40,962 nt of DNA, from the NCBI GenBank assembly GCA_937127435.1, contig CAKZLZ010000141.1:1-40962 (forward strand). The letters run 5' to 3'. Source of the DNA: an uncultured Verrucomicrobiota bacterium. Its GTDB lineage: Bacteria; Verrucomicrobiota; Kiritimatiellia; SS1-B-03-39; UBA6053. This document shows positions 27,665 to 32,688 of this stretch, piece after piece (the first letter of the stretch is position 1; every line of letters starts with the position of its first letter). The position numbers and the translations under genes were made by a program. The notes below the pieces were generated by a model. That model saw nothing but the letters and a program-made list of their open reading frames with translations, made no database searches and was not told the origin of the DNA.

Positions 27665-27738
27665 TCCACGTTCTCCGAACGTGGAAATGAAACAAGAGCC
27701 TAAGCTTCGATTTCCATGCTCGGAGATCGTGGACCACG
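27664..27738. repeat. Palindromic repeat matching 22727-22857 in inverse orientation
   Basis: The element begins GTCCACGTTCTCCGAACGTGG and contains GGAAATGAAACAAGAGC, which is the inverse of sequence at 22824-22840, then ends GGAGATCGTGGACCACG. It overlaps the last codons of the minus-strand methyltransferase gene. Confidence 0.7.
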
Positions 27739-28530
27739 TTGTCTTAAAACCTCATAAAGCGTAATGGCAGCCGCAGTAGACACATTCAATGAATCCGCTA
27801 GCCCTTCCATGGGCAGGGAAACTTTCATTTCGGCTCTTTCCAGCCAATGATCGCTTAAACCCAGCATTTCTGATCCTACCGCTACGGCCACCGGCCCTTG
27901 TAAATTTGATTGATACAAACTTCGATCCGCATGGGGGGTCATGGCCAACAGTGGAATTCCCTGTTCAAGCAACCAGGATCCGCATTCTTCAAATGTACTT
28001 TCAATGACCGGGACTGAAAACAGAGTCCCCACACTGGCACGAACGGTATTGGGATTGTAAATGTCGGTGACCGCATCGCAGAGAATGACTGCATCCACCC
28101 CGGCAGCATCCGCTGAACGCAACATGGTCCCCAGATTTCCGGGCTTCTCAATCCCCACCAGAAGTAAATAAAAGGGATTTTCTCCGGTTTCCAGATTCTC
28201 CAGTCCCAAGTGAAGTTGGGGAGCCAAGGCAATTAATCCGTCCGGCCGGTCCCGATAGGCAACTTTACGAAACACTTTTTCCGAGCAATCATAAAGTCGA
28301 GCCCCGCTTTCTTTGGCAGCTTCGATCAATTCCGGTTCATTTTCTCCCAGCCACAGGTCTTTGCAATAAAAGAAATCCTGGATGGGCCATCCGCTTTGCA
28401 TGGCACGCAGACATTCCCGGTACCCTTCAATCAGAAAAATTTGTTCCTCATCCCGAAAGCTTCGTTTCCGGAGTTTGGTCAGATATTTAATTTTAGGATT
28501 TTGTGGACTGGTGAGTTCTTGAGCTTCCAT
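27700..28530 (-). CDS. TrmH/SpoU family RNA 2'-O-methyltransferase
   Basis: 276 residues. An N-terminal substrate-binding domain (SPQNPKIKYLTKLRKRSFRDEEQIFLIEGYREC) precedes the SPOUT trefoil-knot domain with its three motifs: EKPGNLGTMLRSADAAG, AVGSEMLGLSDHW and VSLPMEGLADSLNVSTAAAITLYEVLRQR. It should methylate a ribose in rRNA or tRNA; the exact target (RlmB- or TsnR-like) cannot be decided. The last dozen codons (after LRQR) fall inside the palindromic repeat at 27664-27738, so the C-terminal tail appears to have been supplied by the repeat. Confidence 0.9.
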   Translation of the reverse strand: MEAQELTSPQNPKIKYLTKLRKRSFRDEEQIFLIEGYRECLRAMQSGWPIQDFFYCKDLWLGENEPELIEAAKESGARLYDCSEKVFRKVAYRDRPDGLIALAPQLHLGLENLETGENPFYLLLVGIEKPGNLGTMLRSADAAGVDAVILCDAVTDIYNPNTVRASVGTLFSVPVIESTFEECGSWLLEQGIPLLAMTPHADRSLYQSNLQGPVAVAVGSEMLGLSDHWLERAEMKVSLPMEGLADSLNVSTAAAITLYEVLRQRGPRSPSMEIEA

Positions 28531-28652: not shown

Positions 28653-29207
28653 ATGAACTTACCTCCCCATAAAATTGAAGAACTTATTTCCGCCAAAGAT
28701 TTGCATGACCGGGTAACAAAAATTGTAGATGATATTACGCAACAACTTGATGACAAACCTCTTGTGATTGTGGGTGTGCTTCGGGGGAGTTTTATGTTCC
28801 TGGCCGATCTGGTTCGGGAACTCCATCCCCGTAAATTTCATCCGCAAATCGATTTTATGACCCTGCAGAGTTATGGAAGCGCCACCGTAAGTAGCGGCAA
28901 CGTGAATATTACCAAAGATGTGACTGTCAGCTTAGATGACATGACCGTTTTGCTGGTTGATGACATTCTCGATTCAGGCCGGACTCTTAATTTTGCGGTA
29001 AAACACGTACTCAATAAAGGGGCGAGCAAAGTTTTGAGTTGCTGCTTACTGGATAAACCCGAGCGACGCGTAGTGGATATCAAAGCAGATTTCATTGGAT
29101 TTGATATTCCGGACACCTTTGTGGTGGGTTATGGCCTCGATTACGACAGCCATTACCGCGAGCTTCCCTATATTGGAAAAGTCGTGTTTGATGAAGACAA
29201 TAAATAA
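28653..29207 (+). CDS. hpt: Hypoxanthine phosphoribosyltransferase
   Basis: 184 residues. It salvages hypoxanthine (and often guanine) by reaction with PRPP. Signatures: VIVGVLRGSFMFLADLVREL, IDFMTLQSYGSATVSSG, and the PRPP loop VLLVDDILDSGRTL. FIGFDIPDTFVVGYGLDYDSHYRELPYIG at the C-terminus is the classic HPRT base-binding region. Length is normal. It is the first gene of a plus-strand run with mnmE and mnmG, but a 100-bp repeat-containing gap separates it from mnmE. Confidence 0.95.
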   Translation: MNLPPHKIEELISAKDLHDRVTKIVDDITQQLDDKPLVIVGVLRGSFMFLADLVRELHPRKFHPQIDFMTLQSYGSATVSSGNVNITKDVTVSLDDMTVLLVDDILDSGRTLNFAVKHVLNKGASKVLSCCLLDKPERRVVDIKADFIGFDIPDTFVVGYGLDYDSHYRELPYIGKVVFDEDNK

Positions 29208-29266: not shown

Positions 29267-29294
29267 GACCTCCGACTTCCGACCTCCGACTTCC
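29267..29294. repeat. Heptamer repeat GACYTCC x4 before mnmE
   Basis: Four tandem heptamers (GACCTCC, GACTTCC, GACCTCC, GACTTCC) end 13 bp before the mnmE ATG. The same heptamer recurs five times before the gene at 35743. Confidence 0.8.
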
Positions 29295-29307: not shown

Positions 29308-30675
29308 ATGGAAACCATTGCAGCCATCATTACCGCTCCGGGTGAAGCCGGGGTTTCAATTGTCCGGGTGAGTGGTCCTGAATCTTTAAAGATAGCAGAT
29401 AAGATTTTTGAATGTAACTCCCCTGCCCCTTCTTCCAGAAAAGCCAATACATTTGTATATGGAAAAGTAATGGATGGAGAGATGGAAGTGGATGAAGGAT
29501 TGTTGCTCCTTTTCCACGGACCCCATAGTTATACCGCTGAAGATGTGGTGGAATTTCAGTGTCACGGAGGAGGCGCTTCTGCAAAACGGGTACTGAGATC
29601 CTGCTTTAATGCCGGGGCGCGGGCAGCGGATCCCGGGGAGTTCACCCGCAGAGCTTTTCTGAATGGACGCATCGATTTGCTCCAGGCCGAAGCAATAATG
29701 GATTTGGTTCGCGCGCATTCTGATCGTTCACAAACTGCTGCCCTTCAACAACTTGAAGGAAAATTAAGTCAGTCTTTTCAAGGCTTATATGACGGACTGC
29801 TCCAGGTAGCCGCACAACTGGAAGCCACTTTAGATTTTCCGGAAGATGAATTACCGGAATCGGTTTTACCCCAAATTCTCACCAATTTATCCAAAACATT
29901 ATCAGATCTTGATGGCCTTTTAGACACTTGGAATGAAGGTCATGTGTTACGGGATGGTGCCCTGGTCGTACTCAGCGGAAAACCCAATGTAGGGAAAAGT
30001 ACCCTGCTCAATACCCTGCTTGGACACGAACGCGCCATTGTATCAGACATTCCCGGCACCACCCGTGACAGCATTGAAGAGGAGTTTATTCTGGAAGGAA
30101 TTCCCATGCGGTTGGTGGATACGGCCGGATTGCGGGAATCTGTGGATGTCATTGAACAAAAAGGAATCAGTCGTACCAAACAATATTTGGAAAAGGCGGA
30201 TTTACACATTCATGTTATTGATCTAAGCCAGGCTGCGGATACACAGACCCTGGAGAACTTTGCAGACTTGATTCCCGGAAAAAGTATCTTGGTCTGTAAT
30301 AAAAGTGATCTGCCTCGATTGTTCCACGTGGAACAATGGCCGGAAGGTATTCCGGTGGTTGAAACCGCGATTAAACAGGAAGTGGGATATCCGGCTCTGA
30401 AAATTGCGCTCAAAGAATTGTTAAGTTCATCTATTGATCTTTCAGCCCGTCCCCATGCGGTAATTTCTGAACGGCACCGTTTGGTATTAATGGACGTAAA
30501 ATCTGAACTATCCGGCATAGAGGCCCTTTTATCCGGGAAATTTGGGGATGAAGCCCTGGTTTTAGCCATTCCCGGACTTCGTGAAGCTTTAATACGTCTC
30601 GGAGAAGTTACCGGACGTGAATATCACGAAGATCTCCTGGATGAGGTCTTTTCAACTTTCTGTATTGGAAAGTAG
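29308..30675 (+). CDS. mnmE: tRNA modification GTPase MnmE
   Basis: 455 residues, the usual length. With MnmG it installs carboxymethylaminomethyl groups on U34 of tRNAs. The N-terminal tetrahydrofolate-binding domain (METIAAIITAPGEAGVSIVRVSG) is followed by a helical domain (EFTRRAFLNGRIDLLQAEAIMDLV) and an inserted GTPase domain with G1 GKPNVGKS (224-231), G2/G3 PGTTRDS and DTAG, and G4 NKSD. The C-terminal FCIGK cysteine motif is intact. The loop just after G4 contains LFHVEQ (338-343), whose codons form a perfect parS site. A further parS lies 2 bp after the stop codon. Confidence 0.97.
   Translation: METIAAIITAPGEAGVSIVRVSGPESLKIADKIFECNSPAPSSRKANTFVYGKVMDGEMEVDEGLLLLFHGPHSYTAEDVVEFQCHGGGASAKRVLRSCFNAGARAADPGEFTRRAFLNGRIDLLQAEAIMDLVRAHSDRSQTAALQQLEGKLSQSFQGLYDGLLQVAAQLEATLDFPEDELPESVLPQILTNLSKTLSDLDGLLDTWNEGHVLRDGALVVLSGKPNVGKSTLLNTLLGHERAIVSDIPGTTRDSIEEEFILEGIPMRLVDTAGLRESVDVIEQKGISRTKQYLEKADLHIHVIDLSQAADTQTLENFADLIPGKSILVCNKSDLPRLFHVEQWPEGIPVVETAIKQEVGYPALKIALKELLSSSIDLSARPHAVISERHRLVLMDVKSELSGIEALLSGKFGDEALVLAIPGLREALIRLGEVTGREYHEDLLDEVFSTFCIGK
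30318..30337. other. parS: parS site 1 (inside mnmE)
   Basis: ATTGTTCCACGTGGAACAAT is a perfect 20-bp palindrome. Its 16-bp core TGTTCCACGTGGAACA is the known ParB-binding parS sequence of several bacteria, for example pseudomonads. It is encoded in frame as L-F-H-V-E-Q. Confidence 0.93.
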
Positions 30676-30676
30676 C

Positions 30677-30696
30677 ATTGTTCCACGTGGAACAAT
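30677..30696. other. parS: parS site 2 (between mnmE and mnmG)
   Basis: The same perfect 20-bp palindrome as site 1, beginning 2 bp after the mnmE stop codon and 359 bp from site 1. Confidence 0.93.
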
Positions 30697-30837
30697 CCAG
30701 GTTAAGATAATGAATGAGGGATACAGGGTTCAAATATGGGATTATACATTCCAGGATTGTAAACAGACGATTTTGGCATAGTTATAAAGCATTATACCCT
30801 TATTCCTTCTTCTCTATCCTTTTTCCTTTCCTATAAA

Positions 30838-32688
30838 ATGACTCCTACTTTTGATGTACTTATTGTTGGTGCCGGCCATGCAGGCTATGAAGCTGCCCTG
30901 GCTTCTGCACGTTTAGGGGCTAAAACGGCGCTTTTAACCATGGATAAAGACGCAATTGGTCGAATGAGCTGTAATCCCAGCATTGGGGGCATGGCAAAGT
31001 CGCACATTGTGTGCGAATTAGATGCACTCGGGGGTGAATTGGGAAGAAATGCTGATTTTACCGGAATTCAATATAGAACCTTGAATCTCCGGAAAGGACC
31101 TGCGGTTCAGGCCACCCGGGTTCAAAATGATAAAGATGCTTTTCCACTTCGGATCCAGGCCGTCATAGCCGCACAGGACAATTTAGAGGTACTGGAGTGT
31201 ACTGCGGGTCAAATATGGACCGAAAATGGTCGGTTACAGGGCATTATCACTGAAAAGAACGAAAATATCCGGGGAAAATGCGTGGGTATTGCTTCCGGAA
31301 CCTTTCTGGGTGGAAAAATTCACATTGGTGATAAAAATCATGCCGGCGGACGGGTATTTGAACCGGCAGCCTATCAACTGTCCGAATCTTTCAAAAATCT
31401 GGGATTTCGATTGGGTCGCCTTAAAACCGGAACCCCTCCGCGTCTACACAAAGATTCCGTTGATTATTCAGTAATGGAAATTCAGCCGGGATTGGAACCA
31501 CCACCGTTTTTCAGCCGGGCAGCGCGGAAAAGACGAAAAGAAGTGGAATTGTTCCACGTGGAACATAAACCTTCCGCATTGGAGCCATGGATTCCCGGAT
31601 CTGAGCAGATTCCTTGCTGGTTAACCCACACAACTGAGCAAACACACCAAATCATTGAGGATAATCTGAAAAACTCCGCAATGTATGGCGGGCATATTGA
31701 TGCCACGGGGGTGCGGTATTGTCCTTCGATTGAAGATAAAATCGTAAAATTCAGGGATAAAGACCGTCATCACGTGTTTATCGAACCTGAGGGGCGGTTT
31801 TGTGATACTATTTATCCCAATGGCACCTCCAACAGTCTACCAGAGGATGTTCAGAAAGAAATGATCCATTCAATCCCAGGAATGGAGAAAGCGGTGTTTA
31901 CTTTGCCCGGATATGCGATTGAATACGATTTTTCCGATCCAACCCAGTTATTTCACAGTTTAGAGAGTAAATTGGTGGAAGGATTGTTCCTGGCCGGTCA
32001 AATCAATGGCACCACCGGATATGAGGAAGCGGCAGGGCAGGGCTTTATGGCCGGAGTCAATGCCGCCCGCAAAGCTTTAAAAATGGATACATTTGTATTG
32101 GGACGACATGAAGCGTATATTGGAGTGCTGATTGATGACCTGATTAATAAGGGAACAGACGAGCCCTATCGCATGTTTACTTCGCGTGCAGAACACCGTT
32201 TGCTCTTACGCCAGGACAATGTAGACTTCCGTTTGCGGGGAAGGGCAGGGGAGTTGGGCATTCATTCAGAGGCACATTTGGCTGAAATTGACAGAATTAA
32301 CCTCGCTATAGAGAGCGAAATGGCCCGTTTGGAAAAAACTTTTGTCAACGGTAAGCCTCTGGCCGGGTTGTTGAGACAGCCTGAAAATGAATATAAAGAC
32401 CTTCCTGACCTCCCCGGAGGCTTGGAAGATGAGGTGATGCAACAGGTAGAAATCCGCATGAAATATGCCGGATATATCGACCGGGAATCCCGCCAGGCCG
32501 CCAGAGCGGTAAAATTAGATAAAGTATTGATACCCAAAGATATAGACTATGATGATATCGTCTCTATCCGCTATGAATCCCGGGACAAACTCAAAAAAAT
32601 CCGCCCGGAAAATTTAGGACAGGCCGCCCGGATCAGCGGGGTGAATCCTGCCGATATTTCGATTCTGCAGGTGTTTTTGAAAAAGTAG
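30838..32688 (+). CDS. mnmG: tRNA uridine-5-carboxymethylaminomethyl modification enzyme MnmG
   Basis: 616 residues, FAD-binding partner of MnmE. The dinucleotide fold [28 protein letters not shown] opens the protein. [25 protein letters not shown], the [11 protein letters not shown] block, LKTGTPPRL and the conserved [26 protein letters not shown] follow. [21 protein letters not shown] closes the FAD domain, and the C-terminal helical MnmE/tRNA-binding domain includes [17 protein letters not shown] and GYIDRE. Between PPFFSR and QIPCWLTHT there is a longer-than-usual loop holding LFHVEH (238-243), which overlaps a parS site. No ribosome-binding site is clear before the ATG. Confidence 0.97.
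31550..31565. other. parS: parS site 3 (inside mnmG)
   Basis: TGTTCCACGTGGAACA, the perfect 16-bp parS core, 871 bp from site 2. It is read in the same frame as site 1 and encodes L-F-H-V-E-H. Confidence 0.92.

Follow-up and report, generated by a model that had tools for sequence, protein, structure and literature searches.

Chromosomal ParABS systems of the Bacillus, Caulobacter and Pseudomonas type are characterized by parS, a 16-bp palindrome that has a GTTNCACGTGNAAC core and occurs in clusters close to the minimum of GC skew, and by ParB with R173 and G201 or their equivalents. Here we describe sites of this kind in the mnmE–mnmG gene pair of an uncultured Verrucomicrobiota bacterium (Kiritimatiellia), found in a 40,962-nt stretch of contig CAKZLZ010000141.1 (positions 1–40,962), the whole of this stretch being further called the window. 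The locus resembles the known systems in these features, but differs from them in several respects: the sites lie on mnmE–mnmG, forms other than TGTTCCACGTGGAACA are hardly seen, parB is far off (about 2 Mb from the sites in G010, a genome of the same genus), and no parA was seen next to parB on the contig scanned.

The coding sequence of spo0J in B. subtilis carries an intragenic parS. In P. aeruginosa, parS sites are located in recF, according to PMC3909081, and parS-like sites are present in mnmG of Burkholderia, Caballeronia and Listeria. The studied locus is similar to these cases in having parS in coding sequence near the origin; unlike them, it has a dedicated loop insert of variable length and frame, whose distribution covers a class and reaches further classes of the phylum. 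Hence, intragenic parS is not new in kind, and it is the conserved expandable host loop that our literature search found undescribed: the accessible parts of the sources contain no description of parS in the MnmG loop or of a lineage-wide dedicated loop, while the 2007 parS survey by Livny and colleagues could list such sites.

We consider it very probable that the three TGTTCCACGTGGAACA sites form the parS centromere of this chromosome, predicted to load ParB by the origin, with one site in an MnmG loop insert that other phyla lack. A broader reading seems likely, if less firmly so: in much of Verrucomicrobiota the centromere would be an expandable MnmG loop existing to house parS, with the peptide set by the frame, mnmG locked to the origin, and dnaA and parB free to move.

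parS sites on mnmE and mnmG

Genes were called from open reading frames (ORFs) and NCBIfam profiles. The features that carry the sites are as follows.

29308–30675, + strand: mnmE, tRNA-modification GTPase (NF003661, 389.3 bits, cut-off 380)
30320–30335: parS site 1, inside mnmE, 1012 bp into the coding sequence, encoding LFHVEQ (codons 338–343) in the variable region following the NKSD motif
30679–30694: parS site 2, in the 162-bp mnmE–mnmG gap, 3 bp past the mnmE stop codon
30838–32688, + strand: mnmG (gidA), tRNA uridine-5-carboxymethylaminomethyl(34) synthesis enzyme (TIGR00136, 745.7 bits, cut-off 524.85; full-length equivalog)
31516–31605, + strand: coding insert of MnmG with parS, residues 227–256 (30 amino acids)
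31550–31565: parS site 3, inside mnmG, 712 bp into the coding sequence, encoding LFHVEH (codons 238–243)

An earlier note on this DNA had reported three perfect sites, placed the cluster on mnmE–mnmG themselves and considered a 16-bp palindrome unlikely by chance. All of this is confirmed: each site matches TGTTCCACGTGGAACA with 0 mismatches, all three lie within 1.25 kb and agree with the palindromic parS consensus TGTTNCACGTGNAACA, and one is in mnmE, one in the gap and one in mnmG. When the window was shuffled 100 times with dinucleotides preserved and matches with 3 or fewer mismatches were counted, the mean number was 0.14 and the maximum 2, so that 0 of 100 shuffles reached three.

The whole-genome count proposed in the same note shows no scatter of copies. 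The draft genome to which the window belongs (G000; 5,200,065 bases in 236 contigs, 93% complete) contains exactly three perfect copies of TGTTCCACGTGGAACA, all of them in this cluster, that is, in 1.25 kb out of 5.2 Mb, as expected from the clustering and rarity of chromosomal parS. Two additional places match with 2 mismatches; at the same tolerance, the control, TGTTCCACGTGGAACA read backwards, yields one match per strand.

The parS-bearing loop of MnmG and its distribution

The window protein is a full-length member of the MnmG family, scoring above the TIGR00136 cut-off and having the same fold as the known MnmG/GidA structures (PDB 2zxi, 3ces, 3cp8, 9hip); MnmG/GidA structures are the top Foldseek matches. 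Unlike these structures, it has about 20 extra residues between S226 and Q257, which hold the parS-coded LFHVEH. HMMER alignments with MnmG of Aquifex (2zxh) and E. coli (3cp2) have gaps at the LFHVEH stretch. The AlphaFold2 model has a mean predicted local distance difference test score (pLDDT) of 89.8, and residues 235–245 are the only segment (of at least 3 residues) below 50; in the model, this segment coincides with the parS-coded stretch inside the insert. The earlier note mentioned neither the coding insert nor its conservation.

When window MnmG was aligned with 25 named loci, the insert was observed in all nine loci with verrucomicrobial titles (Verrucomicrobia, Opitutia, Puniceicoccales, Rubritalea or Lentisphaerales in the record title) and in none of the 16 others. 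The loop length was then counted as the number of residues that an automatic alignment places between S226 and Q257 of the window protein. It ranges from 14 to 94 residues (median 41) in 139 MnmG proteins of the class, and from 10 to 50 in the nine loci with verrucomicrobial titles; the shortest verrucomicrobial loops are misplaced by the alignment, namely those of L120 (10, about 34 residues by eye) and the fragment from G094 (15). Among the other 71 of the named loci, which are the best 80 of a longer list, the loop comprises 9–13 residues (median 10); two of these 71 records, L177 and L179, bear no phylum name.

In the order, we identified 24 sites in ten out of twelve genomes, all of them exact TGTTCCACGTGGAACA though the search pattern left two positions free. 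In the class, 167 out of 224 genomes match TGTTNCACGTGNAACA, and the site is inside mnmG in all 30 class loci returned with the TGTTNCACGTGNAACA search. The mnmG DNA was examined in 139 of the 224 class genomes including the draft itself (122 of the 167 with an exact match and 17 of the 57 without one); the remaining genomes have no MnmG match at E 1e-60, or their mnmG DNA is outside the sample (e.g., G193, G199, G215–G221, G223). The best site in mnmG is perfect in 118 of these genomes (including G051, where mnmG is broken in the assembly), has one mismatch in 17 and two mismatches in three, and is absent in one. It is located between the loop anchors in 137 out of 139 genomes, the two exceptions being G093, with no site, and G094, with a gene fragment starting in the loop. 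Genome-wide, 215 exact matches were found in the 139 genomes: 195 within mnmG, 16 in the flanking DNA fetched with it and four elsewhere; one of these four, in G003, lies in mnmE on a different contig.

Taken over the phylum, 221 out of 383 genomes have a match, the class included. Thirty genomes from other classes were chosen for having a match, and in 24 of them a perfect site is inside mnmG.

One could also suppose that old synteny keeps mnmG close to the origin, and that the arrival of parS in it was a chance event in the genus of the window. This would agree with chromosomal parB being commonly encoded near gidA and mnmE, as stated in PMC10653881, and with a parS-like site (at most 1 mismatch) being present in the fetched locus of 27 out of the 71 loci without verrucomicrobial titles, five of these sites lying inside mnmG. 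The five are located at nt 1397–1415 (L141, L172, L175, L178; Burkholderia, Caballeronia and Hydrogenophilales) and at nt 1556 (L189; Listeria), that is, outside the verrucomicrobial loop, and suggest separate origins in these bacteria. On the contrary, the class sites recur in one and the same loop, perfect sites in mnmG are found in most of the genomes chosen from other classes, and the long loop is absent from all 71 other named loci, leaving a chance event in one genus next to negligible in probability.

Some individual loci differ from the general picture. In L235 (G093), mnmG has lost parS and has a loop of 22 residues, and the whole draft genome has no exact match. In L251 (G051), mnmG is frame-broken in the assembly and both parS copies are intact. 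In L093, L095 and L096, the loops between two parS copies hold repetitive peptides, e.g., SEQSAVGS in L093, a pattern that looks like the expansion of a dispersed DNA repeat into the coding loop. Three genomes of other classes have a single match outside the mnmG locus (frames named by eye): just upstream of an argS-like frame in L393 (G227), within a long helicase/nuclease-like frame in L381 (G436), and beside lepA/lepB-like frames in L369 (G340).

DNA and peptide at the loop site

The site inside mnmG is translated in three different frames. Perfect mnmG sites are read as FHVE in 160 cases, as CSTWN in 22 and as VPRGT in 12 (158, 22 and 12 without G051). As the FHVE frame accounts for 158 out of 192 sites, FHVE(H/Q) could be a functional peptide motif of MnmG and MnmE, with the palindrome a by-product of the codons. 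FHVE is, moreover, found in all 26 mnmG loops recovered from other classes, some of which lack a perfect site, and in some of these lineages it abuts the conserved Q-x-x-C. Silent changes (CAT for CAC, GTA for GTG) that break the palindrome yet keep FHVE also occur, e.g., in G067 and G071.

Such a peptide motif does not explain why 34 out of 192 perfect sites are read as VPRGT or CSTWN, nor the presence of the identical 16 bases in the non-coding mnmE–mnmG gap, nor, in the structural model, a pLDDT below 50 at LFHVEH. All four parS codons are used in 179 out of 195 FHVE motifs compared to 5.8 expected from the codon usage of the same genes; given the kinship of the genomes and a sample enriched for matching ones, this figure overstates the significance and is a guide rather than a probability. 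We therefore regard the peptide explanation as most improbable.

With three reading frames and parS codons in excess of the genes' own usage, selection at the loop site appears, as far as can be judged from sequence, to act on DNA and not on the peptide. The near-fixed codons and the three frames in a loop that is itself variable indicate that the DNA role is apparently dominant over the coding one.

The mnmE site is distributed more narrowly. FHVEQ following NKxDLP was observed in nine out of 125 MnmE stretches, all nine from the family of the window, and the site is also present in mnmE of two genomes from other classes (G302 and G314).

ParB, the replication origin and the proposed role of the loop

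A parB gene, the absence of which the earlier note had named as telling against its claim, is present in the draft. The only strong ParB is encoded on contig C204 (TIGR00180, 197.6 bits vs. the cut-off of 58.45); two weaker ParB-like matches, 43.7 and 32.6 bits, are both under the cut-off. The protein has an N-terminal GLGRGL motif in addition to ParB_N and HTH_ParB domains. In an alignment with Caulobacter ParB (6t1f), its residues are R173, A179, A184 and G201 in the numbering of Jalal 2020 (PMC7383237), with the offset set by eye to match residues named in that paper. The same paper reports the R173/G201 pair to be invariant in ParB and altered in Noc. Because R, A, A and G occupy positions 173, 179, 184 and 201, this ParB is predicted to prefer parS over Noc sites. 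The Noc model scores it at 230.4 bits, below the cut-off of 315, and the Q173/R201 pair of Noc is replaced by R and G.

The earlier note had also stated that parA and parB are not found by mnmG. This could be followed for parB, where it held: parB is on another contig in the draft, and about 1.96 Mb off in G010 if that contig is circular. In G010, a ParA-like P-loop ORF, resembling an Mrp-type ATPase, lies about 7 kb from parB.

The closeness of the cluster to the origin, likewise proposed in the note, is supported by GC skew. In the window, cumulative skew has its minimum near 29 kb, changing from negative to positive. In G010 (a single 4,432,027-bp contig, skew read from sampled stretches), the equivalents of the three window sites are at 525,981, 526,809 and 527,190, and the skew turns at 528.5 kb (500-bp bins), 1–3 kb from the sites at 526.0–527.2 kb. 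In 20-kb means, the skew of G010 is negative in all stretches sampled from 2.94 Mb across the contig ends to 0.51 Mb, and positive in all those sampled from 0.54 to 2.73 Mb. The dnaA gene of G010 is at 458 bp, 0.53 Mb from both the sites and the skew turn, and parB is at 2,995,167, near the skew maximum.

Two more one-contig genomes of the class follow the same trend. The site of G074 is at 3,344.4 kb, with dnaA at 3,338.0 kb, parB at 2,530.1 kb and the local skew minimum at about 3,338 kb (about 6 kb off); in G087, the first site is at 1,365.0 kb, with dnaA at 1,386.2 kb, parB at 2,712.0 kb and the local minimum at about 1,383 kb (about 18 kb off). Sampled stretches on the two sides are opposite in sign in both genomes, the exception being a weakly negative 20-kb stretch at 1.48 Mb on the positive side of G087. 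Thus, no more than about 20 kb separates parS from the skew minimum in any of the three one-contig genomes examined, as expected of chromosomal parS.

The genes dnaA and parB are placed less regularly. dnaA is about 5–110 kb from mnmG in G223, G086, G068, G035 and G088, and on another contig in G051; in the draft it is on contig C183. Distances of about 5–110 kb hold for most of the near-closed class genomes checked other than G010. The distance between parB and mnmG is 0.18–2 Mb in the five genomes with both genes on one contig (G010, G074, G087, G223 and G035). These positions of the origin, parS and dnaA agree with PMC10197239 on 12 gut strains including Akkermansia muciniphila, where most parS sites were clustered and used along with GC skew to place the origin, which did not systematically coincide with dnaA.

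The location of the sites in and around a single operon-like gene pair would also suit an operator of an mnmE–mnmG regulator, or a ParB/Noc-type site serving regulation or nucleoid occlusion and not segregation, and the Noc model does give the draft's ParB 230.4 bits, though below its cut-off. However, an operator 712 bp (mnmG) or 1012 bp (mnmE) inside the coding sequence would be unusual, the residue pair in ParB is the R/G of proteins that bind parS and not the Q/R of Noc, and the sites keep close to the skew minimum in the three one-contig genomes examined; such a regulatory role is very unlikely.

Several observations, besides the silent changes and the overstated codon figure described above, weigh against the centromere reading and its extension to the phylum. 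The binding of ParB to TGTTCCACGTGGAACA is itself a prediction, and two of the six contact residues common to ParB and Noc, as given in PMC7383237, differ in the draft's ParB (G in place of S172, K in place of R204). No ParA-type P-loop ORF was found on the 29-kb parB contig, parA not having been searched genome-wide. No DnaA-box cluster (TTATCCACA, at most 1 mismatch) was found at hpt–mnmE, only scattered single boxes in the window and the fetched relatives, so the position of the origin is deduced from the skew. An exact match is lacking in 17 of the 139 class genomes; 16 of them keep a site with 1–2 mismatches in mnmG and G093 has none, and the sample is enriched for matches (122/139 vs. 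167/224 searched). Six of the 30 genomes from other classes have no perfect parS in mnmG within the locus fetched: in two the site is immediately upstream of mnmG, in three it is elsewhere, and in G368 two additional sites lie outside the fetched DNA. Finally, no exact match was found in the genomes sampled from families f48, f54 and f60, and therefore the trait is not shared by the whole phylum.

ParB loading and spreading and the recruitment of ParA and SMC are known from other bacteria. By analogy, under the centromere reading ParB dimers would bind parS and close into cytidine triphosphate (CTP)-dependent sliding clamps, which would spread over mnmE–mnmG; ParB would then recruit ParA and SMC, and the origin region would be segregated first. 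The expandable, poorly ordered MnmG loop would tolerate any peptide spelled by parS, and may persist because parS is housed there. As a consequence, mnmG would be held at the origin, whereas dnaA and parB have changed place.

If so, one DNA stretch is under two selections, as a centromere and as enzyme coding sequence, and there is a testable explanation for mnmG staying at the origin in these bacteria. The loop site may further help to mark the origin in draft genomes of Verrucomicrobia, in which dnaA is potentially misleading, and this is a lineage where the association of parB, parS and dnaA has been lost.

Two genes adjoin the skew turn upstream of mnmE.

28653–29207, + strand: hpt, hypoxanthine phosphoribosyltransferase (TIGR01203, 180.6 bits, cut-off 150); GC skew turns about here
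27700–28530, – strand: SpoU-type RNA methyltransferase, trmH/rlmB-like (best NCBIfam match RlmB, 114.1 bits, under the cut-off of 160.15); adjoins the skew turn

The gap between trmH and hpt was considered as a conserved origin element and rejected, its length being 98–122 bp in the window, G009 and G010 vs. 744–975 bp in six other genomes, where the longer gap appears by eye to contain a short coding frame. The Rfam scan of the window yielded tRNA only. In the hpt–mnmE gap, near the skew turn, GACCTCCGACTTCC is present twice in tandem (29267–29294).

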